64,000 nt of DNA from Pseudoprimorskyibacter insulae (GTDB lineage Bacteria > Pseudomonadota > Alphaproteobacteria > Rhodobacterales > Rhodobacteraceae), in NCBI RefSeq assembly GCF_900302505.1, contig NZ_OMOJ01000001.1, forward strand, positions 496,001-560,000. Direction: 5' to 3'. The notes below the pieces were generated by a model, which was given only the letters and a program-made list of their open reading frames with translations, had not been told where the DNA came from and ran no database searches. Shown one piece after another: positions 21,788 to 63,959 of this stretch. The translations under genes and the position numbers were made by a program. Position 1 is the stretch's first letter. Every line of letters begins with the position of its first letter.

Positions 21788-23299
21788 ATGACTGGGAGGT
21801 TCACTTCGGCGCTGACGATGGGGGCGCTGATTGCGATGACAGCCGCGCCCGGCTGGGCTCAGAGCAACGAAGTTATCACAAAACAATATGATGACGGCGG
21901 CGTGTACGAAGGCACATTCCAAGATGGGCTTCAGCACGGCAACGGCACCTATATGTTGCCCAACGGCTATGAATATAGCGGTGAATGGGTCGATGGCGAA
22001 ATCAAGGGCAAGGGCGTTGCCAAATTCCCCAACGGGTCGGTCTATGACGGCACCTTTGCCAAGGGCAAACCCGATGGCGTGGGCAAGATCATCTTTGCCG
22101 ATGGCAGTTTCTACGAAGGCACGTGGCTGGATGGCAAGATCACCGGTCAAGGCGTGATGGTCTACGGCAATGGCGTCCGGTATGAAGGCAGCTTCCGCAA
22201 TGCGCTGCATCACGGGCGCGGCACGATGACCAGCCCCGGCGGTTACGTCTACGAAGGCGACTGGGTCAACGGCGTCAAGGAAGGCAACGGCAAGATCACC
22301 TATCCCGATGGGTCGATCTATGAGGGCCGCATCGCCGAGGGTGAACGCGATGGTCAGGGCAAGCTGACCATGGCGGACGGTCTTGTCTACGAAGGCATGT
22401 GGCGCGCGGGCCAGATCGAGGGCGCAGGCACGCTGTCGCAAACCAATGGCGATGTCTATGATGGTGATCTGGTGGCAGGCCGCCGCCAAGGTCAGGGCAA
22501 GGTCACCTATGCCAATGGCGACACCTATGAAGGAGCCTTTGCCGATGACAAGCGTCACGGGCAGGGCACATTTGTGGGCTCGGACGGGTATCGCTACACC
22601 GGCAATTGGGTTGAAGGCCAGATCGAAGGTCAGGGCGAAGTGCATTACCCCGATGGGTCGGTATACACCGGCATGTTCTCGGGCGACTTGGCCAACGGTA
22701 AGGGCAAGATCGTCTATGCCGACGGGTCGACCTATGATGGTGACTGGGTGGATGGTGTGATCGAAGGCGAAGGCACGGCCACCTATCCGAACGGTGTGAC
22801 GTATAAAGGCGGGTTCAAGAATGCCCGCAACCATGGCTTTGGCGTGATGTCCTATGCCGATGGCTACACCTACGAAGGCAACTGGGACAACGGTCAGCGC
22901 CACGGCGACGGCAAGGCGACCTTCGCGGATGGGACCGTTTACACCGGCCAATTCGAAAAGGGTCAGCGCCACGGCAAGGGCGATATCACCATGCCCAACG
23001 GCTTTACCTATTCCGGCGACTGGGTGAACGGCGCCATCGAAGGCCAAGGCCGCGCGGTCTATTCCAACGGTGATACCTATGAGGGCGGTTTTGTGAACGG
23101 CAAGCGCCAAGGGCAGGGGACCATGCGCTATGCATCGGGTCAGGAAGCCTCGGGCGAGTGGGTGAACGGTGCGCTTGATGCGATTGAGGCACCGGAACCA
23201 GCTGCGGATGCCATCCCGACCGCGGATCCGGCCCCGACAACCGAACCGGCCCAAGATGTCGTCCCAGCCGAGGAAGCCCCGGCCGAAACCGGCAATTAA
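21788..23299 (+). CDS. Exported MORN-repeat protein (18 full repeats)
   Basis: 503 residues. A Sec signal peptide (MTGRFTSALTMGALIAMTAAPGWAQ) precedes an uninterrupted run of 23-residue MORN repeats from about residue 37 to 450. I count 18 full units of pattern Y-x-G-x-(F/W)...G-x-G-x-(hydrophobic)...NG, plus a partial nineteenth. The C-terminal ~50 residues are a Pro/Ala/Glu-rich tail with no fold. MORN arrays form elongated beta-sheets that bind lipids or act as scaffolds; a periplasmic or surface role is expected. No enzymatic domain was seen. The 3' end overlaps thpR tail to tail by 4 bp. Confidence 0.88.
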   Translation: MTGRFTSALTMGALIAMTAAPGWAQSNEVITKQYDDGGVYEGTFQDGLQHGNGTYMLPNGYEYSGEWVDGEIKGKGVAKFPNGSVYDGTFAKGKPDGVGKIIFADGSFYEGTWLDGKITGQGVMVYGNGVRYEGSFRNALHHGRGTMTSPGGYVYEGDWVNGVKEGNGKITYPDGSIYEGRIAEGERDGQGKLTMADGLVYEGMWRAGQIEGAGTLSQTNGDVYDGDLVAGRRQGQGKVTYANGDTYEGAFADDKRHGQGTFVGSDGYRYTGNWVEGQIEGQGEVHYPDGSVYTGMFSGDLANGKGKIVYADGSTYDGDWVDGVIEGEGTATYPNGVTYKGGFKNARNHGFGVMSYADGYTYEGNWDNGQRHGDGKATFADGTVYTGQFEKGQRHGKGDITMPNGFTYSGDWVNGAIEGQGRAVYSNGDTYEGGFVNGKRQGQGTMRYASGQEASGEWVNGALDAIEAPEPAADAIPTADPAPTTEPAQDVVPAEEAPAETGN

Positions 23300-40227: not shown

Positions 40228-41184
40228 TTATAGCCACAAGGCGGTCTCTTCGACCTCGCGGCGGGTCAGAATGCGGGCGGCGGGGCGCATTCCGTGTAGC
40301 GGGAAATGGGGAACGCGGCCTTGTAAACGGTCAAGGCGCGTCAGCAAACCCGGCGGCAGCTTGGCCAGTGTTTGGTCGTTGATCAGCAGGCTTTCGGCAG
40401 GCAGGCCATTGGCCACCAGCACCGCATGGACCGGCAGCACAAGGTGGTAATAATCGATGGGGGCCGTCAAATCGGGCGATTTCACCTTTTCACCATCGAT
40501 CAAAGATTTGATCGGCACCAACCGGCCCGGCATCGGGTTGGTCAAAAAGATGTTGTGGTTCGGCGATAACATAACCGACCGATATGGAACCCCCGGCGCG
40601 ATTGCATCGCGGACGACTTTGACAGGGGCTTGCCCGGTGGCCTTGGCGCGATCCGCCGACAGGGTGCAGTGGCAGAGGTTCAACACCGGGTGCGCCTCGC
40701 CGAACCAATCGATGACGGTGTCCCATGGCGCAAGGGTTTGAACCGGGCGCGGGCCTTCGGATGTCAGGATATGTGTGCCTTTGGCAAAGCACAGCGGTGC
40801 CAAAGTCCCGACATTATAGCCGACCGGATCCAAGTTCACGACCAGGGCGATCATCCCTGTCGCGCTTGGCGCGCCGTCTGGATAGACGAAGACCAGATCG
40901 CCGGTTGTGTCATTTTCAAGCAAGACCAGATCGCGCGCGAACCCTGTTGGAACCGTCAGACCCAGCACGTTGATCCCCGGCTGTGCCGTGCCTGACCCAA
41001 CCATCGTATAGCTTTGCCCGGCCAGCGTGACGGTTTCGCCCACGTACATCATTCCGCTGGCATCGCTGAGCGTGCTTGTCACCTTCGAAGAGAACTGGCC
41101 CAGGAAAATAGTGGTCGCGCTGCTGAACAGGTTCACTGCCAGCAGGGCGCCATTGTAGGTCTGGTATGTTGCCGTGATGTCCAT
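40228..41184 (-). CDS. Hint-domain protein (second copy type)
   Basis: 318 residues. N-terminal ~125 residues are beta-rich with no family recognised. The Hint domain starts at Cys132 (CFAKGTHILTSEGP), followed by VQTLAPWDTV, SPNHNIFLT and HAVLVANGLPAESLL. It shares only these motifs with the Hint protein at 1484. No ribosome site is visible before the ATG, so the start could differ. Secretion or self-processing cannot be shown from sequence. Confidence 0.75.
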   Translation of the reverse strand: MDITATYQTYNGALLAVNLFSSATTIFLGQFSSKVTSTLSDASGMMYVGETVTLAGQSYTMVGSGTAQPGINVLGLTVPTGFARDLVLLENDTTGDLVFVYPDGAPSATGMIALVVNLDPVGYNVGTLAPLCFAKGTHILTSEGPRPVQTLAPWDTVIDWFGEAHPVLNLCHCTLSADRAKATGQAPVKVVRDAIAPGVPYRSVMLSPNHNIFLTNPMPGRLVPIKSLIDGEKVKSPDLTAPIDYYHLVLPVHAVLVANGLPAESLLINDQTLAKLPPGLLTRLDRLQGRVPHFPLHGMRPAARILTRREVEETALWL

Positions 41185-49704: not shown

Positions 49705-50667
49705 TCAATCGACCGGCGGTTTGTTCGCCGCGATGCGCAGGCGGGTGTCCACGTCTTCGCGTTTGGTGCCTGACAGGTATTCATCATAATAGGCCACCAT
49801 GGTCGGACGCGGCGCGCCTTTGCGGGCGGTGTCCCAGCGGGTTGTATAGCTGACATAGATGCCGCGACGGTGGTTCGGATCGGCGCTGCGGGTCTTGGGC
49901 TGTGTCGGGGCGACGGCGCCTTGGTAGTTGCAGACCAGATCACCATTGACCCAAGCGCGCACAAATCCAGTGTGATCCGGCGCGAAATTGCTGTTGATCA
50001 CCAGATCGACCCAAGTGCCGCGGCTGGCCTCCATGCTGAACAGCTTACAGATATAGCCGTCGTTCTGCGCCTCGCCCCAGTTGTTGGCTTGGCGCATGTC
50101 ATCCAGTTGCAACACCACGTCGCGCCCGGCGTCCTGGGTACGCTGACAGACCGCGGGATCGCAGGTTGTCCAATTGCCTTCGCCCTGACCAATCTGAATG
50201 ACGCGGATCGCGGCGGGGATCGATCCATCCAACTTCCACTGACCATAGACCGTTTTCAACGCGTCGCGGCGGCTGAACGAGGGGATGTTGGCGTTATAAA
50301 AGCTCCACCCGAACCAAGTGTCATCGCGCAGGAAGGTCCGGGCATCGCCGGTGCTGCGAATTTCAGACCGATAGCGGGGGTTGCCGCAGTCCGTTCCCGC
50401 GCAATCCGCGCTGCGCACTTCGTACCGTTCGCTACGCTGCCCGCGTCGGACGGGTTCCCCCGGAACCGAGAAGCGGAACCCATAGGGGCGGTCGTTCAGA
50501 AGGCGCGCATACCCGGCAGGCGCGAAGGTCGCCATTTCCTCTAGCGTGGTTGGTGTGGCCTTTTCGGCCGGTTTGGGCTGAAGTCTCGAAAGTTGGTCGG
50601 ACACTTTCGACACCGGAACGCAGGCGGCAATCAGCAAAATTGGAAGAATTTTAAGAGTCGCATGCAT
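49705..50667 (-). CDS. Lipoprotein resembling heparin-lyase-I-type polysaccharide lyases
   Basis: 320 residues from ATG 50667. Signal with lipobox LLIAAC (Cys16) so it is probably anchored in a membrane. The mature part looks like the jelly-roll Polysacc_lyase (heparin lyase I) family: YRSEIRS near residue 95, WFGWSFYNANIP, YGQWKLDGS, TWVDLVINSNFAPDHTGFVRAWVNG and a C-terminal RRGIYVSYTTRW. The divergent neighbour algD suggests a role on the alginate-like polymer, for turnover or release. The substrate is not proven and the family match is from memory of motifs. Confidence 0.65.
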   Translation of the reverse strand: MHATLKILPILLIAACVPVSKVSDQLSRLQPKPAEKATPTTLEEMATFAPAGYARLLNDRPYGFRFSVPGEPVRRGQRSERYEVRSADCAGTDCGNPRYRSEIRSTGDARTFLRDDTWFGWSFYNANIPSFSRRDALKTVYGQWKLDGSIPAAIRVIQIGQGEGNWTTCDPAVCQRTQDAGRDVVLQLDDMRQANNWGEAQNDGYICKLFSMEASRGTWVDLVINSNFAPDHTGFVRAWVNGDLVCNYQGAVAPTQPKTRSADPNHRRGIYVSYTTRWDTARKGAPRPTMVAYYDEYLSGTKREDVDTRLRIAANKPPVD

Positions 50668-50991
50668 CGGGCATATACCTTGTACCGGGTGTGGCATGGC
50701 GATACCGACGCCGAAATGGCCACAAATTGCCATAAAGTCTTAGATTGTTTCGATTTGAAACTCGATTCCACTGACCTCTGATGGAGTGGTTTCGCAATAA
50801 TCAACCATATCTTTCCTGTTTTAAGGGGGTGCGATACCATAATTGGTGTTTTGATGCACAAATGACACGTTTGACCTTCGGGCCGGACACTAAGATTGTT
50901 TCTTCTTTGTTCAGAACCGTTTCCAACGTATTTTAGCCATAAAAACTAAAGATAAAGACTTCACCTTTTGTGAAGCTTGAGAGGCAGAGAA
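50668..50991. promoter_or_regulatory. Divergent promoter region upstream of the alginate-like operon
   Basis: 324 bp without genes, AT-rich relative to its surroundings. A weak sigma-70-like pair, TTGTTC at 50907-50912 and TATTTT at 50929-50934 (16-bp spacer), could drive algD. A 6-bp inverted repeat CTTCAC-CTTTT-GTGAAG at 50959-50975 would lie in the 5' leader, 16 bp before the ATG. I looked for an AlgU/RpoE-type GAACTT-N16-TCTGA promoter and did not find one. Confidence 0.45.
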
Positions 50992-52311
50992 ATGGCAAAG
51001 ATCAGTGTCTTCGGCATTGGCTATGTTGGCGTAGTAGCAGCAGCATGCCTAGCCCGTGATGGTCACAGTGTGATCGCAGTAGACGTAGACCCCGGCAAGA
51101 TCAAATCGATCAATGCGGGTCTGTCCCCGATCGTGGAAAACGGTCTGGATGAACTTATCGCAGACGCAGTTAAGCAAGGCCGCCTTGAAGCGACCAGCGA
51201 CGTACAATACGCAGTGGATAACACCGACGCATCGTTCGTCGCTGTTGGCACCCCGTCGGCCCCCGATGGTTCGGTCGGCCTGGTCTATGTGACCGACGTT
51301 TGCAAAAACATCGGCAAGGCCTTGAAAAACAAAGATACTTGGCACTCGGTTGTCATTCGTTCGACCATCGTTCCGGGGTCGTGCGAAACCGCGTGTATCC
51401 CCACGCTGGAAGAAGAGTCGGGCAAAAAAGCCGGCGTTGACTTCGGCATGGGCTATTACCCTGAATTCCTGCGTGAATCGACCGCGATCGAAGATTACTA
51501 CGATCCGGGTCTGATCGTGTTCGGCGCCATGGACAAGCCGACCGCAGATATCCTGACCGAGCTGAACAAAGACCTGCCGTGCGATATCAACGTTGTTGAT
51601 CTGCGCACCGCCGAAATGGTCAAGTACTGCTCGAATACCTGGCGCGCCGTAAAGGTGACCTACGCCAACGAAATCGGCAACATCGCCAAGGCCTGCGGCC
51701 TGGACGGTCAGAAGGTCATGGAAATCCTGACTTCGGACAACAAGGCGATCGTTTCGAAATACTTCATGCGTCCGGGCTTTGCATTCGGTGGTTCCTGCCT
51801 GCCGAAAGACGTCCGTGCGCTGCGCCACCTGGCCCGTGAAAAGGGCATCAAGGCGCATCTGCTTGAAGCCACGCTTGAGGCCAATGAGGCCCAGATTCAG
51901 CGTGCAGAAGACATGGTGACCAAGTCTGGTGCCAAGAAAGTGGGCTTTGTGGGTGTGGCGTTCAAGCCGGGCACCGACGATCTGCGCGAAAGCCCGCTGG
52001 CAACCTTGGCTGGCCGCCTGATTGAGAAGGGCATCGAGGTGTCGATCTACGACCCCTACGTTGCCGAAGCATACGCAACCGAAACACCGGGTGCGGGCCG
52101 CGGCAATGACGTGATCCCGAACCTGCCAGAGCGTATCACCACCGATCTGAATGCAATGCTGAACGACACTGGGGCTGTGGTCGTTGGCAACCTGTATTCC
52201 GAAACAGTGGAAGCACTGACCAAGTCTGCCAAGTCGCGCCCGATTGTCGACCTGACCCGCTTGAACAAAGAGCTGGTTTCGGACGGCACCTACGAGGGCA
52301 TTTGCTGGTAA
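50992..52311 (+). CDS. algD: GDP-mannose 6-dehydrogenase
   Basis: 439 residues (Pseudomonas AlgD 436). Makes GDP-mannuronate, the committed precursor of alginate. ISVFGIGYVGVVAAACLA is the NAD motif; the catalytic Cys269 sits in FAFGGSCLPKDVRAL; YYPEFLRESTAIEDY and FKPGTDDLRESPL follow. The C-terminal EGICW is identical to Pseudomonas AlgD, and alg8 and alg44 follow, which argues against UDP-glucose dehydrogenase. The start ATG follows GAGAGGCAGAGA. First gene of the nine-gene run. Confidence 0.93.
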   Translation: MAKISVFGIGYVGVVAAACLARDGHSVIAVDVDPGKIKSINAGLSPIVENGLDELIADAVKQGRLEATSDVQYAVDNTDASFVAVGTPSAPDGSVGLVYVTDVCKNIGKALKNKDTWHSVVIRSTIVPGSCETACIPTLEEESGKKAGVDFGMGYYPEFLRESTAIEDYYDPGLIVFGAMDKPTADILTELNKDLPCDINVVDLRTAEMVKYCSNTWRAVKVTYANEIGNIAKACGLDGQKVMEILTSDNKAIVSKYFMRPGFAFGGSCLPKDVRALRHLAREKGIKAHLLEATLEANEAQIQRAEDMVTKSGAKKVGFVGVAFKPGTDDLRESPLATLAGRLIEKGIEVSIYDPYVAEAYATETPGAGRGNDVIPNLPERITTDLNAMLNDTGAVVVGNLYSETVEALTKSAKSRPIVDLTRLNKELVSDGTYEGICW

Positions 52312-52333
52312 TCTTGTATCCCGAGGGGCGCTC

Positions 52334-53806
52334 ATGCTGCTTCTGACACACATGGCCTATTTCGCGGTCATCATCCTACTAGCCACCTCAGTGCCTCAAG
52401 GGGCACTGGGATCGCTGGAGGCCGCGAAAAACTCGATCTTCATCCTTGGGTTCCTAGGAGCCTGGAGATATTCGTGGGCTGCATTGAACTTTACCCGTGC
52501 AATCATCTTCCGCCGGATCGTGTATCCGGTGCGCAAGGCACGGGTGTTCAAGCGGTTCCGTGACGACAAGATCGTGTCGCACTGCTTCTTCATGGTGACC
52601 ACCTACGGCATGGAAGTGCCGGTCACCATGCAGGTCTATCGCAAGCTGTTCCACGCCGCAGCCAATGCGAAAGACGGCTCGACAATCGTGGCCTCGGTTG
52701 TGGATGGATCGGATGAGCGTCTCATTCGCAAGATTTTCGAGACCATGCCGCGGGATATGTCATCCGTGCGGCTGGTCATCGACCGGATCAAATCCAAGGG
52801 CAAACGCGACGCGATTGCGCAAGCCCTTGATATTTTAAGAAGCTTCAGCCCGACTCATCGGGATATTTGCGTTTTTCTGGACGGCGACACGGTCCCCCCG
52901 GAAGACATTCACGCAAAATCCGCCCCGTGGTTTACCAACCCCAAAATCGGGGCTTTGACCACGGATGAGGGCGCGCTGATCGAACGCAAGAACCTGTATC
53001 GTGACTGGTTCATTTTGCGTTTTAACCAGCGGCAAGTGATGATGAGCTCGATGGGGCTCTCGAACCACGTTCTGACGCTGACCGGCCGCATGTCGGTCTT
53101 CCGCGCGGATCTGGCGACCAACCCTGAATTCATCGAAGGCGTCGATCACGACTTCATCGACCATTGGCGCCTTGGCCGTGTGACCTTCCTGACGGGCGAT
53201 GACAAATCGACCTGGTACTGGCTTCTGCGCCATGGCTACGAAATGGCCTATCTGCCCGACGTCCGGTCCTGGTCGTTCGAGGCGCAGCCGCGCGACACCT
53301 TCTTCGATAGCGCGAAGACGCTTATGGTGCGCTGGTTCGGCAACATGATGCGCACGAATGGCCGTGCCCTGCGTCTGAGCCCGCGCAAAATTGGTTTTTT
53401 CACGTGGTGGTCGATCCTCGACCAGCGTGTGTCGGCTTGGACCACCTTGGTTGGTCCGCTATCCGTGGCCATCGCGGCCACTTTCCACACGCTTACGGTT
53501 ATCCCTCTGTACATCGCATGGGTCATGGCGACCCGTTACATCTTCTGTGTGATCATCGCCTTGAACCGTGGAACATGGTTCCCGATCACACACCCGCCGA
53601 TCCTGTATTTCGGTCAGGTTGTCGGCGCATCGATCAAAACCTTCGTGATGTTCAGACTTAACAAGCAAAAATGGACCCGGCAGACGGCCACAGAAGCCGC
53701 GGCAGTTCCGAAGTCCGACAAGCAGAAGGCCCAAGAATCCTTCATCCACCACGTACTAGCCATCATCTGGCTGACCATTGGCGTCCTGTTCCTGGCCAAC
53801 ATTTAA
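52334..53806 (+). CDS. alg8: Alginate polymerase-type glycosyltransferase
   Basis: 490 residues (Pseudomonas Alg8 494). Processive GT2 membrane enzyme that polymerises GDP-mannuronate. Membrane helices at the N-terminus (about 1-50) and near the C-terminus (about 375-490) flank the cytosolic catalytic domain. Metal motif DGDT at residues 183-186; LTGRMSVFRADLATNPEFI; FLTGDDKSTWYWLLR with Asp289-Asp290; and TLMVRWFGNMMRTNGRAL, a close match to the Alg8 RW block. All polymerase motifs are intact. The ATG follows GAGGGG, 22 bp after algD. Confidence 0.95.
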   Translation: MLLLTHMAYFAVIILLATSVPQGALGSLEAAKNSIFILGFLGAWRYSWAALNFTRAIIFRRIVYPVRKARVFKRFRDDKIVSHCFFMVTTYGMEVPVTMQVYRKLFHAAANAKDGSTIVASVVDGSDERLIRKIFETMPRDMSSVRLVIDRIKSKGKRDAIAQALDILRSFSPTHRDICVFLDGDTVPPEDIHAKSAPWFTNPKIGALTTDEGALIERKNLYRDWFILRFNQRQVMMSSMGLSNHVLTLTGRMSVFRADLATNPEFIEGVDHDFIDHWRLGRVTFLTGDDKSTWYWLLRHGYEMAYLPDVRSWSFEAQPRDTFFDSAKTLMVRWFGNMMRTNGRALRLSPRKIGFFTWWSILDQRVSAWTTLVGPLSVAIAATFHTLTVIPLYIAWVMATRYIFCVIIALNRGTWFPITHPPILYFGQVVGASIKTFVMFRLNKQKWTRQTATEAAAVPKSDKQKAQESFIHHVLAIIWLTIGVLFLANI

Positions 53807-53856
53807 GTTGGCCGGTTTTTCAGGTTTTACAGGCAAAAAGAGACGAGTGATTGACA

Positions 53857-54933
53857 ATGACCGAGCAAAGCAACATCGCAGCAGAAGCCCACACCTCCAT
53901 CCCGGTAGACTTCGTATACGACACTGAGCACCCGGTACTGCCGATTCCCTTTACTGTGCATATTGGCGACCAGAAGTTCGAAGGCGCGGGTCTTTCGATC
54001 ACGGCGGCTTTCATCAAAGCGCCCGGCCCGTTCGATCCCGGCTTGGTTGGCACCAAATTCATCACCCGTCTTCAGTTCGATTTCGAAGGCTTCACGGTGG
54101 CCCTGTTCCCCGAAGCCATGGTTGCCGGAACGCGCAACGACGGTGAAATCGCGTTGCAGTTCATGGACCCGACCGGGCCGCACTTGCCGCAATTGCGATA
54201 CATTCTGAACAGTTTTATTGCCGGTGACTTCGTGCAGCTTGGCTCGATGCTCAGCTACACCGGTCCGGTGAAGCCGAAGAAGGCCAAAGAGGCCGCATCA
54301 GAGGATCCGCGCCGTCGTTTGCGCAGCCTTGGCGCGGCGGTTTTGTCCGGTGTCTTGATCCTGACTGCGGCCAACGTGATTCTGACCCGCTACACCCAAA
54401 GTTTCGAGGCGCGCCCGGTATTTATCGAACGCGCGGGCACCGAAATGCGGGCCACGGCTGCGGGCCAGCTGACCTATCTGAACCCCACCGCGCGTGAAGG
54501 CGACGTGGTGTTCTCCATCAATTCCAACAGCGGGGATGTCCTCAACTTCCAGCTGCCATGTGACTGTGAAGTCACACTTTCTGAGGGTGCCGTCGAGGGC
54601 GCAACTGTCCTTCCTATCGACCCAATTCTGACGTTTTTCGACTCTAGCATGGGACTCAGAGTGAGAACTCAAATGAGTGTTGAAGGACTGGCTAAGGCGA
54701 TGGACGGCGAACGCGTATATCTCGATATGGCAGATGGCCGCTCGATCCCGGTAAAAGTTGTCGTGAACTCGGCAACCAATGCGTCAGCACTTCGTGGCGA
54801 ATTGTACGTACCAGTGGACCTAGTGGCTGAAGAGGGCAGCTTGGGTGAAGGGGATATTGGCCAATCGGCGCGCGTGCGTCTGGCGAAACCCATTTTAGGT
54901 GGTGCACTCCTCGATCTGAAGGAAATGCTATGA
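53857..54933 (+). CDS. alg44: Alginate co-polymerase Alg44-like protein with degenerate PilZ domain
   Basis: 358 residues (Pseudomonas 389). Cytosolic PilZ-like domain (about 15-125), one membrane helix (about 156-176, AAVLSGVLILTAANVIL), then a periplasmic HlyD-like domain with the CDC motif at 235-237 (LPCDCEV), as in Pseudomonas Alg44. Pseudomonas Alg44 is activated by c-di-GMP through RxxxR and DxSxxG motifs. The aligned stretches here read TEHPV and GLSITAA, so both arginines, the Asp and the Gly are lost. LRYILNSFIAGDF still aligns with the family. It overlaps algA by 4 bp. Confidence 0.9.
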   Translation: MTEQSNIAAEAHTSIPVDFVYDTEHPVLPIPFTVHIGDQKFEGAGLSITAAFIKAPGPFDPGLVGTKFITRLQFDFEGFTVALFPEAMVAGTRNDGEIALQFMDPTGPHLPQLRYILNSFIAGDFVQLGSMLSYTGPVKPKKAKEAASEDPRRRLRSLGAAVLSGVLILTAANVILTRYTQSFEARPVFIERAGTEMRATAAGQLTYLNPTAREGDVVFSINSNSGDVLNFQLPCDCEVTLSEGAVEGATVLPIDPILTFFDSSMGLRVRTQMSVEGLAKAMDGERVYLDMADGRSIPVKVVVNSATNASALRGELYVPVDLVAEEGSLGEGDIGQSARVRLAKPILGGALLDLKEML

Positions 54934-56336
54934 CCAAGATCTACCCGCTGATTATTTGCGGCGGCAACGGCACCCGGCTCTGGCCAATTTCGCGGACCCA
55001 GAGCCCCAAACAATTCCAGAAAGTCGGCGACGCCGACAGTCTGACGTTCTTCCAAAGCACGGTTGAGCGCCATCGCGGCGAAGACTTCGCCGACCCGATC
55101 GTTGTGACCTCGGTACGCCACCGCAAAGTGGTGCATGAGCAGCTGGATGAAATCGGCGTGCAGGCCGAAGTTATCCTTGAACCCATGGGCCGCAATACCG
55201 GTCCGGCCGTTCTTGCCGCTGCTTTGACCAAGATCGCAGATGATCCCGATGCGCTTCTACTGGTGCTTCCGGCGGACCACGTGATCCGCGGCGATCTGAA
55301 CACGACCATCACCGCGATGCGCGGTGCGGCCCTGGACGGTTATATCATCACCTTCGGCATCAAGCCGCGTTTTGCTGAAACCGGCTTTGGCTATATCGTC
55401 GATGACGGACCGATCGTTGGCCACAACGGCCTGCGCATGGTGGAACGCTTTGTCGAAAAGCCCCCGGCACGCAAAGCGCGCCAGTTGGTTGAAAGCGATA
55501 TCGCCTATTGGGCGTCGGGCATTTCGATGTTCTCGGCCAAGACGATCATCGAAGAATACACCCAGTTTGACCCGGCAACGGTCGAAGCTGTGCGCAAATC
55601 GGTCGAACTGGCCGATGAACGCGAAGACGGGCTGATGCTGAACGCCATCCGCTTTAGCGAGGCCGGCAACCTGCCGACCGAACAGGCCGTGTTCGAAAAG
55701 ACTAGCCGCATTTCGCTGGCACCGCTGGACATCGACTGGTCCGACGTGGGCAGCTGGTCGGCCATGTACGGCATCTCGGACACCGACCACCTTGGCAACG
55801 TCCTTCAGGGCGACGCGATTGCGGTCGAAACGCAAAACTCGATGGTGCGCTCGGATGGCCGCCGTCTGGTGACGTTGGTCGGGATGAAAGACACCATCGT
55901 GATCGACACGCCTGACGCGCTGCTGGTGACCCAAGTGGGCCATTGCCAAAGCGTCAAGAAGGTTGCCGAGTTCCTCAAAGAGGAAAAGCGTCTCGAAGCA
56001 GAGCGCCACGTCGGCAAAGAACACGAAGACGGTCTGACCCGCCTGATCGCCAGCGATCATGTGAACGTGGCCGAAGCCAAGATTCAGCCCGGCAAGTCGC
56101 TGGAGATTGCCAAAGGCAACGGACGTGAAGTGATCGTTGTACGTGGTCAGGTGATCTTTGGAAGTGACGACGCCGCCCAAACCTATCAGGAAGGGCAGCG
56201 CTTTGCTCTGAGTGAAACCGAAGCAAGCACGCTTCGGAACAAGACCGGCAAAACGGCCGAGCTTTTGTTCCTGAACGTGCAAGCGCCGGTCGAACACGAC
56301 GCGAGCAAGGTTCTGTCACTAAAGAATTATGCATGA
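54930..56336 (+). CDS. algA: Mannose-1-phosphate guanylyltransferase (AlgA-like, isomerase half degenerate)
   Basis: 468 residues (Pseudomonas AlgA 481). Nucleotidyltransferase half intact: IICGGNGTRLWPISRTQSPKQF (residues 7-28), LEPMGRNTGPAVLAA, LPADHVIRG and FVEKPP. It makes GDP-mannose for AlgD. The C-terminal cupin of bifunctional AlgA normally has PWG and QxHxHRxEHW for phosphomannose isomerase; around residues 385-405 this protein reads KSLEIAKGNGREVIVVRG, without the metal histidines. It probably lacks isomerase activity and would need a separate ManA. In Pseudomonas algA is the last gene; here it follows alg44 with a 4-bp overlap. Confidence 0.9.
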   Translation: MTKIYPLIICGGNGTRLWPISRTQSPKQFQKVGDADSLTFFQSTVERHRGEDFADPIVVTSVRHRKVVHEQLDEIGVQAEVILEPMGRNTGPAVLAAALTKIADDPDALLLVLPADHVIRGDLNTTITAMRGAALDGYIITFGIKPRFAETGFGYIVDDGPIVGHNGLRMVERFVEKPPARKARQLVESDIAYWASGISMFSAKTIIEEYTQFDPATVEAVRKSVELADEREDGLMLNAIRFSEAGNLPTEQAVFEKTSRISLAPLDIDWSDVGSWSAMYGISDTDHLGNVLQGDAIAVETQNSMVRSDGRRLVTLVGMKDTIVIDTPDALLVTQVGHCQSVKKVAEFLKEEKRLEAERHVGKEHEDGLTRLIASDHVNVAEAKIQPGKSLEIAKGNGREVIVVRGQVIFGSDDAAQTYQEGQRFALSETEASTLRNKTGKTAELLFLNVQAPVEHDASKVLSLKNYA

Positions 56337-57864
56337 CAGATTGAAGCATATCGCGAAACAGGCCCTTGGGGCCTGTTTCAGCATGGTTTTCTGCGCAATC
56401 CCGGCGATGTCCGGGGCGGCCACGATCCAAGAAGTTGAAGATCTGCGCAGTGCGCTGCGGGGCTTTGCCGCTACGGTTGGCGATACCCAAGACACCCGCG
56501 TGCAGGCCGATGCGCTGATCGGGGCCTCTGGCCTGACCGGCATCGTCGATCTTCAGACAATCGCCCGCCCGACCGGGCAAATCGCCGCCGCTGCTCCGCA
56601 GCGTGGCGGTATGGTTGACGCGCGTCCGATGGACGTGCGTTTTGCGCTTGGTCTGATCGCTCAGATCTATGGCGCTAAGGACAACCTCGACATCATCGAA
56701 GCGCAGGCCAACCCTTCGGGTGAGGCGCTGGTCATCAATCGCGGCACGGTCACATTGGCCGAAATTTTCCGTCAGCTTGACCGCACGGGCCTGCAAAGTG
56801 CCGCCGATAGCGCGGATGGCGTGCTTCGCGTGCCGGTCATCATCTGGGCCGAGGGCGCGATTGAACTGGGCCCGCAAGACCGCGTGATCATGAGCCGCGA
56901 ACATGGGGCGTTTCTGGCCAACTTTGGCCGGATGACGGCCAATGGCACAGAATTCACCACAGTCGGGGGGATGAACCCTAAGAACACGGACTTTATTCCC
57001 TTCGTCGTGAACGCCGGCGGCGCCTCGGTTGAACTGCGCAATTCGGTTGTGGACGGTCTGGGCTTTGGGTCCGAAGGCAAGTTCGGCGGGTTTTCCCTTG
57101 TTCGGAACCCGCTGATGGTGAAACGCGACCGTAACGTGTTGGAAAACAACACATTCCGCAATCTGGTCAGCGTGACAACCTCGATGGCCGACGGTGTTGT
57201 GATCCGCAACAACCGTATATCGGATTCGCGCGGTCCGTCGCTTGTGGTGACGCACTCGATTGAGACGCGGCTTCTGGGCAACCTCATTTCTGGCAACGCG
57301 CCGACCAACGGGATTCGACTGCTGCAAGGCTCGGCCCGTGGGATCATTGCGGGGAACATCATTCTTGAAGGTGACCGCGCCGGGATCGTTGTTCAGAACG
57401 ACAGCAACAACGTGATCATTCGCAACAACATCGTCTGGGCGCGGGGCGGGGGTGGCATCACCATTTCCAAATCGCGCTGCGGCTTGGTTGAGGCCAACCT
57501 CGTGATGGACAACCGCCAAAAGGGGATCGAGGTGCGCTCAACCCCCGGCGTGACGGTGCGCAGCAACCGCATTTACGGCAACCGCTCTGCGGCGCTGTGG
57601 GTGTCTGATCAGGAAAAAGAAGTCATCACCCATATCGAAGGCAATGACGTCAACGCCAACGGGTCGGGCATTGCCACGGCGCAGGGCGAAGTTCTGGCTT
57701 TGATGGGCAATGATTTTACCAAGCAATTCCCGCGCTTTGTCGATGGGGATATTTCACCGCAAGGCCGCCTGATCGCGTCCAATCTGGATGGGTCGGTTCC
57801 GGTCGTTCTGACGGCGGGCGGCGTCTATACGGGCGCGGCGCAAACAGCGGGATGTGAGTACTGA
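56329..57864 (+). CDS. algG: AlgG-like right-handed beta-helix protein (putative mannuronan C5-epimerase)
   Basis: 511 residues (Pseudomonas 543). Sec signal (cleavage about MSGAA-TI, residue 31), then a right-handed beta-helix (about 180-440) rich in N-N-x-(I/V) turns: NVLENNTFRNL, VVIRNNRISDS, NVIIRNNIVW and VTVRSNRIYGN. GAFLANFGRM and FIPFVVNAGGASVELRNSVV align with Pseudomonas AlgG. The catalytic DPHD motif is absent; VVTHS (His309) occupies the equivalent position. Epimerase activity is uncertain; the protein may protect polymer in the periplasm, a second known AlgG role. It overlaps the end of algA by 8 bp. Confidence 0.82.
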   Translation: MHDRLKHIAKQALGACFSMVFCAIPAMSGAATIQEVEDLRSALRGFAATVGDTQDTRVQADALIGASGLTGIVDLQTIARPTGQIAAAAPQRGGMVDARPMDVRFALGLIAQIYGAKDNLDIIEAQANPSGEALVINRGTVTLAEIFRQLDRTGLQSAADSADGVLRVPVIIWAEGAIELGPQDRVIMSREHGAFLANFGRMTANGTEFTTVGGMNPKNTDFIPFVVNAGGASVELRNSVVDGLGFGSEGKFGGFSLVRNPLMVKRDRNVLENNTFRNLVSVTTSMADGVVIRNNRISDSRGPSLVVTHSIETRLLGNLISGNAPTNGIRLLQGSARGIIAGNIILEGDRAGIVVQNDSNNVIIRNNIVWARGGGGITISKSRCGLVEANLVMDNRQKGIEVRSTPGVTVRSNRIYGNRSAALWVSDQEKEVITHIEGNDVNANGSGIATAQGEVLALMGNDFTKQFPRFVDGDISPQGRLIASNLDGSVPVVLTAGGVYTGAAQTAGCEY

Positions 57865-57865
57865 T

Positions 57866-58648
57866 ATGGCTTGGGGGCAAGTTAAAACCGTTTCAGTCGC
57901 AATTCTGGCCCTTGGGCTAGGGGCACAAGTCTGGGCGCAAGAGGCATCCTTGCCACTGCCCATTCCCTATGATCGGGACACTCGCGAAATCAGCGTGGTC
58001 ACCGACGAGGGGCTGAAATCCATGGCGCGTCTGCCGCAAAACCTGAAGGATGCGCGGCAAGCCATGTTCAACGACCAGATCGTCGATGCAGACGATTTGA
58101 AAGCGCTGGCCGACCGGGGCGATACCCTGGCCGCGCTGCATTTTGTCGATGTGCTGAAGGCACGCGGCATCGAAAACAACCCGTCGGATACGGCCTATTA
58201 CGCGGCAATCGCCGTGGGTGGTGGCCGGGTTTGGGCCTTGCCGGAAATGGTGCAAGCCATGCACATGTTGGACCCCAAGACCGAACCCAAAGCGCGGGTG
58301 AACAAGTATATCTCGGTTTTGTACCCGCATGCTTGGGCCGGAAATACGCTGGCGCTAGAGGCGGTTATGTCCTTTAACGGGGAAGGCCGCCTGTTTGGGC
58401 CTTTGTCCTCGGCGACCAAAGCCAAGATTGACGAACAATTGGAAACTCAGACAGCGGGCCGCTTTGACTTGCAGCGCGCCGTCGACATTCTCCGAAAGCC
58501 GACATTGACCGAGGCAGAACTCGGCACGGCACGCACCCTGCTGGAGCGGGCGCAAAATTCGGACCACCTAGCGGTTGCAACGACAGCCGCGAACCTACTG
58601 GAGCAGTTGGCCGCAAATCATTACGGAAATGCGGCCCAAAACAATTAA
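57866..58648 (+). CDS. Periplasmic Sel1-like protein of the alginate-like cluster, function unknown
   Basis: 260 residues from ATG 57866, which overlaps nothing but lies 1 bp after the algG-like stop; a GTG at 57854 is an alternative. N-terminal Sec signal (VSVAILALGLGAQVWAQE). The rest is helical with weak Sel1/TPR-like units (ALADRGDTLAALHFVDVLKARG, TAYYAAIAVGGGRVWALPEMVQAM, ARTLLERAQNSDHLAVATTAANLLEQ). I know no counterpart in the Pseudomonas alginate operon. By position it may help the AlgK-like protein as a scaffold. Confidence 0.75.
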   Translation: MAWGQVKTVSVAILALGLGAQVWAQEASLPLPIPYDRDTREISVVTDEGLKSMARLPQNLKDARQAMFNDQIVDADDLKALADRGDTLAALHFVDVLKARGIENNPSDTAYYAAIAVGGGRVWALPEMVQAMHMLDPKTEPKARVNKYISVLYPHAWAGNTLALEAVMSFNGEGRLFGPLSSATKAKIDEQLETQTAGRFDLQRAVDILRKPTLTEAELGTARTLLERAQNSDHLAVATTAANLLEQLAANHYGNAAQNN

Positions 58649-58662
58649 GGATACGGGCTAAG

Positions 58663-60183
58663 ATGAAGCGACTGGCCAAAGGACTAGCGGCGGCAGCCGT
58701 GGCGTTTGCCATGGCTCAGACTGCCAGCGCACAATCGACATACGGATGCACCGACCTGGATGGGTTTCACAAACTGCCAAGCGTTGAGGGCACCGAAGGA
58801 TTTTTCTTCCGGGTCGAACCGGAACTCTATAACCACCACCCTTTCTCTGACGAAACGGTCGAAGATCTGGCCCGTGTCGCGCAGTCGCTTGCGCAAAGCG
58901 GCACGACCCTGATCTACGCGCCGATCCCGCCAAAAAGCATGGTGATGACCAAAAACCTGCCGCAGCGGGCCTTTGACTATGGGTTTGACCCCGACATCGC
59001 CTCGACGCTGTATGACGACATGATCGAGCGGCTTCAGGCCGTTGGCGTGCGTGCGGTCAACCTGCGCCGGGCGCTTGTTGTGGGGGCGGCCCAATACGGC
59101 GCGCCCTATTTCAAGGCCGATTTCCGACTGAACACGCTTGGCGCCCGGATCGTGGCGCAGGCCGTCGCGCAGGAAATGCAGCAGACCGGCGGCGGTTTTG
59201 GTGCGCCGCGGGCGGCGTTCAACTCGGTCGCGCAAGGCAAGATCGAGATCGACAGCGACATGCGCCGGATCCTGCAGCGTCACTGCCTGATCGAACTGCC
59301 CAGAACCGAAGTGGATGCCTTTGCCACGGCTCGCGCGGGCGGTGGCAACGGCAATTTTGGCACCACAAGCGGGTTTAGCGGCGGGGTGAACACCGGCAAC
59401 GGCGGCACCGCCAATACCGGGTTCAACAACGGCGGCTTTAATCAGGGGAACCAAGGCTTTAACCAAGGCAATGGCGGTTTTAACCAAGGGAACCCAGGCG
59501 GGTTCACCCAAGCTGGCAACGCGAACCAAGGTGGCAACTTCAACACCGGCGTCTTCAACAACGCTCCGGCCCAGACCGGCGGCGGCTTTGGCCAGTTCGC
59601 CCAAGTCGCTTTGGTCGGCACCGAATACACCGCCGATCCCAAGCTGAATTTCGCTGGCTTCCTGTCAGAATCCACTGGCTTTGCGGTCAACAACCTTTCG
59701 ATCCCCGGCGGCGGTGCCTTTGGTGCAATGTCGGCGTTTTTGACCTCGGACAGCTATCAGCAGGCGCGCCCCGGTTTTCTGGTCTGGGAAAACCCGGTCT
59801 ATTACAATCTGGCCAAATACGGCGATCAGCCGATGCGCGAGTTGATGGCCGCAGGCGGGGCAGGGTGCCGTTTGCCGGTGCCTGTCATGGGGTCGATGGA
59901 TGCCAATTCGATCCGCGCCGATCTAAGCGGGCTTGACCCGATGCAGGACTATACGCTGATGCTGGACACAGGCGGGTCGAACGCGTCGCTGGCGCAATTC
60001 GTCTTTACCTCCAGCACCGGGGCCACCCGCACCAAATCCGTTAGCCGCCGCACCGAACAGGAAAAAACCGGGCGGTTCTATGTTCCCATTTCCGGCCTGT
60101 GGAGTGATGGCGTCCGGTCGCTTGAGGTACGCCTCAATGCGCCGATGAACGGCACGCCCCGCATCACGGCATGTTTCTACTAA
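58663..60183 (+). CDS. algX: AlgX-like protein with altered catalytic residues and an Asn/Gly-rich insertion
   Basis: 506 residues (Pseudomonas 474). Sec signal to about residue 23. The SGNH-like domain is split by a low-complexity Asn/Gly/Gln/Phe-rich stretch at about 225-305 (units such as GFNQGN). After it, QVALVGTEYTADPKLNFAGFL, GGGAFGAMSAFLTSD and AAGGAGCR align well with AlgX, then a C-terminal carbohydrate-binding-like domain. In AlgX the triad is Asp174, His176 and Ser269. Here the sites read Asp153, Arg155 and Glu321, so acetyltransferase activity is unlikely. Polymer binding could remain. Confidence 0.82.
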   Translation: MKRLAKGLAAAAVAFAMAQTASAQSTYGCTDLDGFHKLPSVEGTEGFFFRVEPELYNHHPFSDETVEDLARVAQSLAQSGTTLIYAPIPPKSMVMTKNLPQRAFDYGFDPDIASTLYDDMIERLQAVGVRAVNLRRALVVGAAQYGAPYFKADFRLNTLGARIVAQAVAQEMQQTGGGFGAPRAAFNSVAQGKIEIDSDMRRILQRHCLIELPRTEVDAFATARAGGGNGNFGTTSGFSGGVNTGNGGTANTGFNNGGFNQGNQGFNQGNGGFNQGNPGGFTQAGNANQGGNFNTGVFNNAPAQTGGGFGQFAQVALVGTEYTADPKLNFAGFLSESTGFAVNNLSIPGGGAFGAMSAFLTSDSYQQARPGFLVWENPVYYNLAKYGDQPMRELMAAGGAGCRLPVPVMGSMDANSIRADLSGLDPMQDYTLMLDTGGSNASLAQFVFTSSTGATRTKSVSRRTEQEKTGRFYVPISGLWSDGVRSLEVRLNAPMNGTPRITACFY

Positions 60184-60195
60184 GGAGTTGGCACA

Positions 60196-62931
60196 ATGAA
60201 GAGACCGGTACTTTCCCTGATCGCTTCGGCCTTGCTTGCCAGCCTTCCGCAGGCAGGAACGGCCCGAACCGTGGATTTGGCATTCATGCCGCCCAAGATC
60301 GAACTGCGCAACATCTGCTCGCCCGAGCGTGAAGCAAAAGAGGACGATCTGACCATTGGCGAAGAAGACGGCAACCTGACCGATTTTCTGCGCATCCGCT
60401 ATCTGACGCGCGACATTCGCCGCCTTCAGACTTATGACCCGGACAAGTGGTTTGATTTCATCAACCAGCTGATCACGCGCCGCGCCGAGGTCGATGCCGA
60501 ATTCGCTGGGATTGACGAACTGATCGCGCGGGTTGAGCTGTACATCGACGCCGGCCGCAATCAGCAACTTATGGATGACGGGTTGGTAAACCGTCTGCGT
60601 CAGCGCGAAATCGAAATGTCGTCGAACCAGCGTCTGGTTATGGCGCAGTATTTCCTGAACGGCATCGGCGTCGAAAAGGACGAAGACTACGCCCGCAAGC
60701 TGATCGTGGATGCGGCCTACGGCGGCAACCCCAATGCGCTGCTGTCGATTGCCCGTTTCGATCTGGAAGGCCGCCCCGTCACTGGCTGGGATGCACCGCT
60801 GGATCTGACGGTGACCATGGCCTTTGGCGGCCTGCTGGGCCGGATGAACGAAAACGTCTGTTCGCGTGCCGAACGCATCGCCCGCGAATATATCAACGGC
60901 GATGTGGTGTCGCGCAATTTTGACGTGGCCTACGCGTGGTACAAGTTCTCGGCCGATCTGGGCGGGGCCATTGGCGCATGGCGCGTGGTCGAACTGCACC
61001 TGAACGCCGATGCCAACCGCAAAGACAACAAGGAAATGCTCCGCTATCTGGAAATGGCGGTTCAGCGCGGGATCACCGTGGACGATGCCCAGCTTGCGCA
61101 GATCAAAAGCGCCGGCAATGTCGACGAGGAAGAACTGCAACGCATCCTTGGCTACAACTATTCCGAGGACGATGGCCGCACCCGTGGGTCGCTGTCGAAG
61201 TTCTTCGAACTGGCGGTGAACATCGACGGTGAACGCACCGACGAAGAAAGCACCTATATCGAATACCTGCGCGAGATTTCGCAACTGCCTGCGGCGCCGG
61301 GCTGGATTTTCACCGAACTGGCCAACCAAGTGTTGATCCGGAAGGGCCGTTGGGCCGGTGAAAGCGAGGCGATTGCCCTGCTGGAAGAGGCCGCCGCGCG
61401 CCAAGATCCCGAAGGCATGCAAATGCTGGCAGCAAAGCTGATGCGCTATCGCGATGATCCGGCGATTGTGGACCGTGTGGTTGACCTGCTGACGGAAACG
61501 GTGGAACGCCACGGGCTGGAAACCTCGATGGAGAAGCTCGACTCGCTTTACCGCTGTCAGGTGAATCAGGCGCCGATGCTGCAACAGGCCGAACGCTGGG
61601 CCCGTGCCTATCGCGCGTCGATGTATGAAACCTATCCCATCAGCGCGACCGACCTTCTGGTTCTGGACCCGTTCAAAGAGCCTGAGCCGCTGGCGATCAT
61701 CCAGTCGCAGGCCGTGTCTGGCCGCGTGCAATCGACGGCCAACTATGCCGAACGTCTGCAAGTGGACCCGACCGCCCCCGATAGCGCGCTGCGTCTTTGG
61801 GCCGAAAAGGTCGACCGGTCTGACCAAACGCTTGAGGTGTTCGCCGAGCTTGATTTCGAACTGGCCACCAACCCGGCCGAGCGCCGTTTGGCCATCGAAC
61901 TGTTCCGCCGTGTTTATCTGAACAACGGTGTGACCTCGGCGCTGGATCTGGCGATTGCCTTGGTCGAACACGACGCCCGCAATCCCGAAATCGCGGATGA
62001 AATCATCGAGTTGCTGACCAAATCCGCGAACCGCGGGGAAGGGGCTTCGATCCGGTTGCTGTCGCGTCTTCAGTCAAATGAAATTCCGGCTATCAAGGTG
62101 TTTCAGGAGTTTGAAGAGGTGATCGAAGAACGCGGCGACTTCTTGGCGCTGATGTTCGCGTTGCCCTTTGTGGCGGATTCAAAGATCGACGATTACGTGG
62201 ACCGGGCCGTATCGCTGATGGTGTGCGGCACCAAGGATGCGGATGAAATCGGCGACGTCTACGCCATTCGCAGCATCCCCGAAGGGTCGTTCCATTGGCG
62301 CAATATCGGTCTGTTCTTTGATGGCGGGCACACCCTGTCGAAACTGCGCCTGTCGAACGAACAGATGAAGATGTACCGCATCGGTGCCGCCCCGACCGAG
62401 GTTGAGGTGCTGCAACGTCTGCTGGACGAAGGCGATCAGACCGCCTACCGCCGTCTCTACCTGCTGACCGCCAACCCGGATCTGGAAACCTATGATCCGC
62501 AGGCCGCCGCCGGGTACATGATGTCGCTGGTCAACAGTCGCAACGCGGCCGATGTGAACTGGGTTCTGTCCAGCTATCGCACCGCAGACGAAGACCTGAA
62601 GGCCGCGATCCAAGGCCGGTTCGACATTGGCGGGCTTTACGTCAATGCGATCGACGAAGGCAGCATCGAGGCCAAGTATGAATACGGCATGGTCCTGCGT
62701 GAAAACGCACGCTCGCCCGGCGATCTGGCCAATTCGGCCCGTTGGCTGCGCGAAGCTGCTGAAAACGGCCATGTCGCTGCGATGACCGAGGTGGGCTATG
62801 CGCTGGCCTATGGCATCGGCGTTCCACGTGATCCGCAAGCCGCCGCGCAATGGCTCGAAATGGCCTCGTCGGCTGGCAATGACCGGGCATCGGCGCTTCT
62901 TAGCCTTGTCCAATTTGGGGTTGGTCAATGA
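60196..62931 (+). CDS. algK: Very large AlgK-like Sel1/TPR-repeat periplasmic protein
   Basis: 911 residues, about twice Pseudomonas AlgK (475). Sec signal (MKRPVLSLIASALLASLPQAGTA) without a lipobox Cys, so not a lipoprotein, unlike AlgK. Sel1-type helices are spread along the length: QRLVMAQYFLNGIGVEKDEDYARKLI near 140, FDVAYAWYKFSADLGGAIGAWR near 240, and a canonical pair at the end (SARWLREAAENGHVAAMTEVGYALAYGIGVPRDPQAAAQWLEMA). Strong ribosome site AAGGAG. Presumably a periplasmic scaffold bridging polymerase and exporter. Assignment rests on fold and position. Confidence 0.8.
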   Translation: MKRPVLSLIASALLASLPQAGTARTVDLAFMPPKIELRNICSPEREAKEDDLTIGEEDGNLTDFLRIRYLTRDIRRLQTYDPDKWFDFINQLITRRAEVDAEFAGIDELIARVELYIDAGRNQQLMDDGLVNRLRQREIEMSSNQRLVMAQYFLNGIGVEKDEDYARKLIVDAAYGGNPNALLSIARFDLEGRPVTGWDAPLDLTVTMAFGGLLGRMNENVCSRAERIAREYINGDVVSRNFDVAYAWYKFSADLGGAIGAWRVVELHLNADANRKDNKEMLRYLEMAVQRGITVDDAQLAQIKSAGNVDEEELQRILGYNYSEDDGRTRGSLSKFFELAVNIDGERTDEESTYIEYLREISQLPAAPGWIFTELANQVLIRKGRWAGESEAIALLEEAAARQDPEGMQMLAAKLMRYRDDPAIVDRVVDLLTETVERHGLETSMEKLDSLYRCQVNQAPMLQQAERWARAYRASMYETYPISATDLLVLDPFKEPEPLAIIQSQAVSGRVQSTANYAERLQVDPTAPDSALRLWAEKVDRSDQTLEVFAELDFELATNPAERRLAIELFRRVYLNNGVTSALDLAIALVEHDARNPEIADEIIELLTKSANRGEGASIRLLSRLQSNEIPAIKVFQEFEEVIEERGDFLALMFALPFVADSKIDDYVDRAVSLMVCGTKDADEIGDVYAIRSIPEGSFHWRNIGLFFDGGHTLSKLRLSNEQMKMYRIGAAPTEVEVLQRLLDEGDQTAYRRLYLLTANPDLETYDPQAAAGYMMSLVNSRNAADVNWVLSSYRTADEDLKAAIQGRFDIGGLYVNAIDEGSIEAKYEYGMVLRENARSPGDLANSARWLREAAENGHVAAMTEVGYALAYGIGVPRDPQAAAQWLEMASSAGNDRASALLSLVQFGVGQ

Positions 62932-63959
62932 CAACACGAAATTTGGTGCGGTGTCTGGCATGGGTGCTGGGCACCGCGCCGCTGCTGCTGAGTACCACTG
63001 CCATGGCTCAGGATTGCCCGGCGACGCCGGACCCTGTTTTCACGCTGGATTACGGTAGCCGCTATGCCGATGACAGCGTCAATCGTTCCGACCTCGACGC
63101 CGCCAAAAGCGCCGAAGTCGACGAGGCGCTTGGCCCTGTGGACGATTTTCTGCGCGATCTGACCAATATCGCAAACGGTGTCTATCTGCCCGACGCAGAT
63201 CAAGGTGCCGTGGCCGATTGCGTGTTGGGGCAGGTGGCTGACTGGGCGACTGTTGGCGCATTGGCCCATCTGCAATCGGGCAATGCCAAGATGACCATCG
63301 GGTCACGATTGGCGAGCCTTGGCTTGATCGTGCTGCAAGCCGCGCCGTTCCGCACAACCGACCGCGATCTGGACGCAATCCGCCCTTGGCTGGCCGATCT
63401 GATGCAACGCCAGATGATGTACTGGGAGGCCGACGCCCCCGATGGGGCCAAACGCGGCAACCTGCGGGCTTGGGCCGCTTTGGGCGGGGCCGCCGCCGCC
63501 GCCATCTTGGAAGATCCGGTCGTGCGCGGCTGGTCGGCTTGGTCGGCGACCTATGTGCTGTGTACAGCCGAGGAGGACGGTAGTCTGCCGCAGGAAATGT
63601 CGCGCGGGAGATATGCGCTGCACTACCAAATGCACGCCGCCGCGCCATTGTCAGTGGCCGCAGCGCTGCTGTATCGTCAGGGCGTGGACATCCGCGACCG
63701 CTGCGATGATGCGCTTGGCCGGGTGGTGGGCTTTATCAAATCCGACATCTATGACGGCAAAATCACCGAAGCCAAGGTCGGCGAGCCGCAGTCTTATTTC
63801 GACGGGACCGACACGTTGGAAGGGTTCCACCTTGCCTGGATCGAGGCCTACCTGACCATCGCAAATGACCCGAATCTGGATACGCTGGCCGAACCATACC
63901 GGCCAATGTCCTATTCCAAATTGGGCGGCAATCAGACCCTGATGTGGGCCAAGCAATAA
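62928..63959 (+). CDS. algL: AlgL-like protein (PL5 fold) lacking the catalytic His
   Basis: 343 residues (Pseudomonas AlgL 367). Sec signal (cleavage about AMA-QD). The PL5 alpha/alpha-barrel is recognisable throughout: CVLGQVADWATVGAL, AWAALGGAAAAAI, LSVAAALLYRQGVDIR and the C-terminal PMSYSKLGGNQTL. The catalytic set Asn-His-Arg-Tyr (201, 202, 249, 256 in Pseudomonas) appears here as Asn178, Leu179, Arg226 and Tyr233, so only the His is lost. Lyase activity is likely weak or absent. It overlaps the algK-like gene by 4 bp and closes the operon. Confidence 0.85.
   Translation: MTTRNLVRCLAWVLGTAPLLLSTTAMAQDCPATPDPVFTLDYGSRYADDSVNRSDLDAAKSAEVDEALGPVDDFLRDLTNIANGVYLPDADQGAVADCVLGQVADWATVGALAHLQSGNAKMTIGSRLASLGLIVLQAAPFRTTDRDLDAIRPWLADLMQRQMMYWEADAPDGAKRGNLRAWAALGGAAAAAILEDPVVRGWSAWSATYVLCTAEEDGSLPQEMSRGRYALHYQMHAAAPLSVAAALLYRQGVDIRDRCDDALGRVVGFIKSDIYDGKITEAKVGEPQSYFDGTDTLEGFHLAWIEAYLTIANDPNLDTLAEPYRPMSYSKLGGNQTLMWAKQ

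Follow-up and report, generated by a model that had tools for sequence, protein, structure and literature searches.

The nine-gene operon that we analysed in Pseudoprimorskyibacter insulae most probably makes β-1,4-glucuronan, neither acetylated nor C5-epimerised, a reading that we hold with moderate confidence and draw from sequence comparison. It lies within a window, by which we mean the whole 64,000-nucleotide stretch studied (positions 496001–560000 of the contig; genome size 4.0 Mb). Alginate, the product originally predicted, is doubtful: the residues for GDP-mannose use, C5-epimerisation, c-di-GMP control, the isomerase and acetylation have all changed, and the evidence ties the operon more closely to glucuronan. 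A shade less firmly, we propose that the family to which the operon belongs is a glucuronan synthase system, i.e., an alginate-type machine whose precursor enzymes would have switched from mannose to glucose at C2, and that the window's branch (and, separately, Martelella) was pruned to an unacetylated polymer with silent AlgG and AlgX scaffolds. The two sugars differ at C2 only. If true, the family would supply the genes behind glucuronan, a polyuronate with uses in biotechnology for which the pathway was described as unknown in 2023. Many alginate-looking clusters of Rhodobacterales and Rhizobiales, open to annotation as alginate operons, would then yield another polymer.

Operon Layout and Gene Family

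Nine plus-strand open reading frames fill positions 50992–63959 (Table 1), and an ORF check of the window left their predicted coordinates unchanged. The expected run of same-strand genes with short gaps was borne out, with gaps of 12–50 bp; the overlaps, predicted at 4–8 bp, measure 4–11 bp. The junctions are +22 (D/8), about +44 to +50 (8/44), −4 (44/A), −8 (A/G), −11 (G/S), +14 (S/X), +12 (X/K) and −4 (K/L). The operon ends at 63959, beyond which the next genes lie on the opposite strand (a polyol dehydrogenase and an ABC transporter, in a polyol transporter region); the divergent upstream neighbour is a polysaccharide lyase. Gene products were assigned by Pfam, NCBIfam and PDB searches, and these matches, together with homology among relatives, upheld the alg-type assignments.

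Table 1. Genes of the operon and its divergent neighbour (window positions).
Feature	Position	Strand	Assignment	Evidence and remarks
PL20-like lyase	49705..50733	−	PF14099 polysaccharide lyase, glucuronan-lyase-like	PF14099, 68.9 bits
D	50992..52311	+	NDP-sugar dehydrogenase, GDP-mannose-dehydrogenase class	Arg218 replaces PaGMD His217
Alg8-like	52334..53806	+	GT2 polyuronate synthase	PF13641, alignment, conservation, tree
Alg44-like	53851..54933	+	Co-polymerase	Homology via relatives; probable start ATG 53857
A	54930..56336	+	ManC/AlgA-like sugar-1-phosphate guanylyltransferase, isomerase domain dead	PF00483, PF22640
AlgG-like	56329..57864	+	Periplasmic beta-helix	Weak AlgG similarity; without DPHD epimerase motif
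S	57854..58648	+	Small secreted Sel1/TPR-like helical repeat protein, predicted	In most relatives
AlgX-like	58663..60183	+	Pseudo-acetyltransferase	PF16822; PDB alignment to AlgX; low-complexity Gly/Asn linker
K	60196..62931	+	Sel1-repeat periplasmic scaffold, 911 aa	PF08238; AlgK-like by position
AlgL-like	62928..63959	+	PL5 lyase	PF05426; PL5 PDB matches

An Alg8 alignment led to 80 loci in named genomes, which were annotated using sequences of the window and of Rhizobium sp. T1473 as seeds. The order D-8-44-A-G-S-X-K-L is identical in 24 loci, which excludes its having arisen by chance, and 40 further loci have D-8-44-A-G-I-J-S-X-F-K(-L), with L often outside the fetched stretch. This alphaproteobacterial alg-like family is present on chromosomes and plasmids, mostly of Rhodobacterales and Rhizobiales (at least 80 alphaproteobacterial genomes or plasmids), and forms one clade in both the D tree and the Alg8 tree. 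Having algA fourth and K next to last, once read as a rearrangement peculiar to this operon, is the normal arrangement of the family, and S, the gene taken to be new, is conserved in most relatives and hence a family component. What survives of the idea of a compact, separately evolved system is an alginate-type, synthase-dependent rhodobacteralean operon with its own order; however, its compactness is the loss of algI-J-F, and that order is shared across the alphaproteobacterial family.

The alginate operon of Pseudomonas and Azotobacter runs algD-8-44-K-E-G-X-L-I-J-F-A. It has homologous D, Alg8, Alg44, AlgA, AlgG, AlgX, AlgL and Sel1/TPR proteins and shares the invariant Alg8 motifs, but the window operon differs in order, in lacking AlgE, AlgI, AlgJ and AlgF, and in having an extra conserved Sel1-like gene. 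Residues are changed in D (His217 to Arg), AlgX (His and Ser) and AlgL (His202 to Leu), and the AlgA isomerase, AlgG DPHD and Alg44 RxxxR motifs are lost. A 2020 operon survey described atypical, rearranged alginate operons without outer-membrane or acetylation genes in environmental bacteria (PMC7112194), but the portions of that survey considered here neither analyse single residues nor connect these operons with glucuronan. Our literature search, mostly outside subscription journals, found no earlier claim tying atypical alginate operons to glucuronan and, on alginate genes in Rhodobacterales, returned nothing of use.

Some genomes hold more than one cluster. Rhodobacteraceae bacterium CCMM004 has two (L014 and L054), one complete and without algIJF, the other with algIJF and without D and A; the latter may draw its precursor from the complete one. 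A cluster in another locus (L052) also lacks D and A. Two Alg8-type clusters share one plasmid in the Medicago isolate Rhizobium sp. T1473 (L006/W01). A Medicago symbiont was the first reported source of glucuronan.

Links to Glucuronan

Peteryoungia (Rhizobium) rosettiformans DSM 26376 produces O-acetylated β-1,4-glucuronan, as tested with a Trichoderma glucuronan lyase, and in 2023 the genes responsible were described as unknown; the same study covers Sinorhizobium meliloti M5N1CS as a producer, and pathway genes are identified there for neither (PMC10180729). The R. rosettiformans W3 genome carries a cluster of the alphaproteobacterial alg-like family, placed deep inside it in the Alg8 tree. 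Since species and site are shared, we infer that W3 and DSM 26376 are the same strain. A homologous cluster is found in a proven glucuronan producer species. The W3 genome encodes one Alg8 and one MBOAT protein, the latter within the alg-like cluster; counting against the link, it also has a bcs (cellulose-type) operon. Its cluster retains algI, algJ and algF together with a complete AlgX triad, and the glucuronan of the species is acetylated; the window's branch, in contrast, lacks the acetylation genes.

The divergent lyase provides a second link. In a profile search with the family of this PF14099 neighbour, the sole PDB match was the endo-glucuronan lyase 2ZZJ (E 1.7e-4). A structural model of the neighbour, of moderate quality (mean pLDDT 67), superposes on 2ZZJ with Z 19.0 and rmsd 2.7 over 208 aligned residues, ahead of heparinase I (Z 15.8) and PL7 alginate lyases (about 14). 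Identity to 2ZZJ is about 18%, and the fold also occurs in heparinase I and PL7 alginate lyases. In predicted fold and sequence, the neighbour thus appears closest to the PL20 glucuronan lyase. A PF14099 lyase stands beside D in 14 of the 25 loci that lack algIJF and have enough upstream sequence, and in none of the 45 that have algIJF, a patchy distribution that weakens the link. We considered the PF14099 gene of W3, a would-be glucuronan lyase, as further support and rejected it because it lies in a prophage-like region. Elsewhere in the window's genome (contig C17, L117:8402-10180), secreted lyase-like genes stand in tandem, one PF14099 and one weakly PL7-like.

Precursor Enzymes and Alternative Products

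D matches Pseudomonas AlgD (1MFZ) over its full length at 416 bits, compared with 266 bits for the best UDP-glucose dehydrogenase. In the Pseudomonas enzyme (PaGMD), His217 lies 2.9 Å from the mannose 2-hydroxyl and has been called clearly responsible for substrate specificity (PMC4794789). This site is Arg in all 81 members of the alphaproteobacterial family, the window's included, His in 16 of 16 canonical alginate clusters and Leu in the three UDP-glucose-dehydrogenase-type partners of Alg8 (3/3). In D, the family and the canonical set are separated by fixed differences at only five positions. The enzyme retains the GDP-use residues Arg122 and Ala263, which makes an unaltered nucleotide probable and places the change at the sugar contact. 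We propose, from these residue patterns, that D is a GDP-glucose rather than a GDP-mannose dehydrogenase; our literature search returned no case of GDP-glucuronate serving as a polymer precursor.

Two considerations temper the weight of Arg218. Arg at this position is invariant in UDP-ManNAc dehydrogenases as well (PMC4794789), and therefore its presence alone does not point to glucose. The change in D maps to a single ancestral branch of the D tree, so the loci cannot be counted as separate pieces of evidence. The whole family is set off from canonical clusters by changes in D, A, AlgG and Alg44 and, as it is one clade in the D and Alg8 trees, these changes amount to one event held under constraint, not many.

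A reads NTGPAV where AlgA/ManC has NTAPA, and a Pfam search gave no MannoseP_isomer (PF01050) match. The isomerase motif HxxRxEHW is missing throughout the alphaproteobacterial family and present in canonical clusters and in the second ManC of the window's genome. Nine fixed differences set A apart from AlgA/ManC, including that isomerase-intact ManC, although by sequence they do not name a sugar. No type I mannose-6-phosphate isomerase was found in the window's genome; the idea that the genome is unable to make mannose-6-phosphate was nevertheless rejected, given the intact isomerase domain of the second ManC.

Among other products, the one that survives best is a stripped-down alginate, i.e., poly-β-1,4-mannuronate made from GDP-mannuronate, with no guluronate and no acetyl groups, by an Arg218 dehydrogenase that still takes GDP-mannose. 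We regard it as unlikely, if still a serious contender. It would account for the global closeness of D to GDP-mannose dehydrogenases and its retained GDP-class residues, the similarity of A to ManC and the PL5 family of the operon's lyase, and mannose-6-phosphate is available through the second ManC. However, the His that contacts the mannose 2-hydroxyl is kept in each of the 16 canonical alginate clusters and replaced in each of the 81 family members, A carries its fixed differences, the glucuronan producer R. rosettiformans has the same cluster type, and the neighbouring lyase is closest to a glucuronan lyase. It is improbable that the operon makes some other, undescribed uronate polymer, with D acting on a 2-substituted or different hexose through an Arg used as in UDP-ManNAc dehydrogenases: the invariance of that Arg and the failure of A to name a sugar would both fit, but the operon contains no epimerase or amino-sugar genes, the GDP-class nucleotide residues are kept, and R. 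rosettiformans gives a simpler link to glucuronan.

Synthase and Co-Polymerase

The Alg8-like protein has the invariant motifs DGD, TTDE, TGDDKSTW and LMxRWFGNM and groups with Alg8s, not with cellulose synthases, as the original prediction implied. A cellulose-type operon was rejected on this placement and because no BcsB is present in the genome. The operon pairs its Alg8-type GT2 synthase with an Alg44 partner, the combination that marks an alginate-type system. The Alg44-like protein has a PilZ-like N-terminus without the RxxxR/DxSxxG c-di-GMP motif, which is found in canonical clusters only.

A separate clade of Alg8 relatives directly adjoins UDP-glucose-dehydrogenase-type genes (L161, L162, L165), which suggests that synthases of the Alg8 family need not be tied to mannuronate. 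These three loci, whose genomes belong to a single family from another class, are operons of the order D-8-44-L-K, with a UDP-glucose-dehydrogenase-type D directly upstream of the Alg8-like synthase, and represent a second candidate glucuronan-type system. A single-residue switch for glucuronate in Alg8 was sought and rejected: the Alg8s coupled to UDP-glucose dehydrogenases do not have the residues fixed in the alphaproteobacterial family, and Alg8 therefore gives no verdict on the sugar.

Periplasmic Proteins and Loss of Acetylation

Catalysis by Pseudomonas AlgX depends on Asp174, His176 and Ser269. PDB alignment and family comparison show that the window protein keeps the Asp, has Arg for His176 and has Glu for Ser269. 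The genes algI, algJ and algF are not in the window operon or its branch, and a profile search of the window's genome found no MBOAT (algI-type) protein. Where loci retain algIJF, AlgX keeps Asp-x-His in 48 of 48 cases and the Ser in all 47 that are readable; family members without these genes have lost the His in 29 of 29 and the Ser in 27 of 29. In the Alg8 tree, algIJF was lost at least twice, in the rhodobacteralean clade and in Martelella. Given the loss of algIJF together with that of the AlgX His in all 29 members, in two separate lineages, the polymer should be unacetylated; and the retention of the AlgX protein itself in each of these lineages points naturally to a structural role. 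AlgX thus offers a natural experiment, in which two lineages lost the acetylation genes, the active site decayed and the protein was kept, separating the scaffold role from that of the enzyme. The canonical cluster of Devosia psychrophila (L088) has His217, DPHD and an intact AlgX, and no algI or algJ in the 20 kb covered. A Fisher test on the loci was set aside, since it scored L088 in error as a loss and takes no account of relatedness.

The DPHD motif of AlgG is missing across the alphaproteobacterial family. Glucuronan has no C5 epimers. In the branch without algIJF, the AlgG-like protein has conserved rows of Arg and Lys (R104, R190, K251, R301, R330, R350, R372, K398, R403), absent in the branch with algIJF; from their sequence, these rows could possibly form a track for a polyanion. 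S has no Pfam match; its model (pLDDT 88) finds helical repeat proteins as best fold matches (Z up to 8.9), all generic and none a clear best. K is conserved beside the algL-like gene in relatives. The AlgL-like protein keeps three of the four residues compared with P. aeruginosa AlgL (Asn201, Arg249 and Tyr256), has Leu for His202 and carries an adjacent invariant Arg, so that the motif reads NLR in the family versus NHS in true alginate clusters. Substrates cannot be read from PL5 or PL7-like folds. The AlgE porin (PF13372) is absent from the genomes of the window, of R. rosettiformans and of a canonical alphaproteobacterial representative (G112); a Pseudomonas-type control scored 350 bits.

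Motif controls comprised Pseudomonas-type and other loci (L150, L152–L160, L167–L169) and alphaproteobacterial ones (L008, L087, L088/L119). Among genes that were found and could be read, these controls mostly keep the motifs; L158, L160 and some AlgL proteins gave no clear reading with the simple patterns. A genuine alginate operon, merely re-ordered, with working epimerase, lyase and modification, is very improbable: its nine genes are homologous to alg genes, but the family shows changes in AlgG DPHD, the AlgX triad, Alg44 RxxxR, the AlgA isomerase motif and D His217 alike, algI-type and algE-type genes are absent from the genome by profile, and acetylation and the known epimerase motif contradict it.

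Proposed Working of the Complex

Under the glucuronan reading, the operon would encode a polyuronate synthase complex that spans the periplasm and is a relative of the alginate machinery. A would make a GDP-hexose, presumably GDP-glucose from glucose-1-phosphate, and D would oxidise it to a GDP-uronate, presumably GDP-glucuronate. The Alg8-like and Alg44-like proteins would polymerise this precursor across the inner membrane, without canonical c-di-GMP control. The AlgG-like protein (a dead epimerase), the AlgX-like protein (a dead acetyltransferase), S and K may together provide a channel or scaffold in the periplasm that has no catalytic activity. The AlgL-like lyase would clear stray chains, and the divergent PL20-like lyase may cut or remodel the exported polymer.

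Other Features of the Window

Upstream of gltX, positions 21788–23299 (+) encode a 503-aa secreted protein made almost entirely of MORN-like repeats, an unusual length for a bacterium. Probable sulfolipid (SQDG) genes lie at 11934–14815 (−), namely SqdB-like, GT8-like transferase and NDP-sugar epimerase-like genes. Two Hint-domain-like proteins of the CFxxGTxIxTxxGxxxVExL type are encoded at 1484–2530 (+) and 40228–41184 (−).
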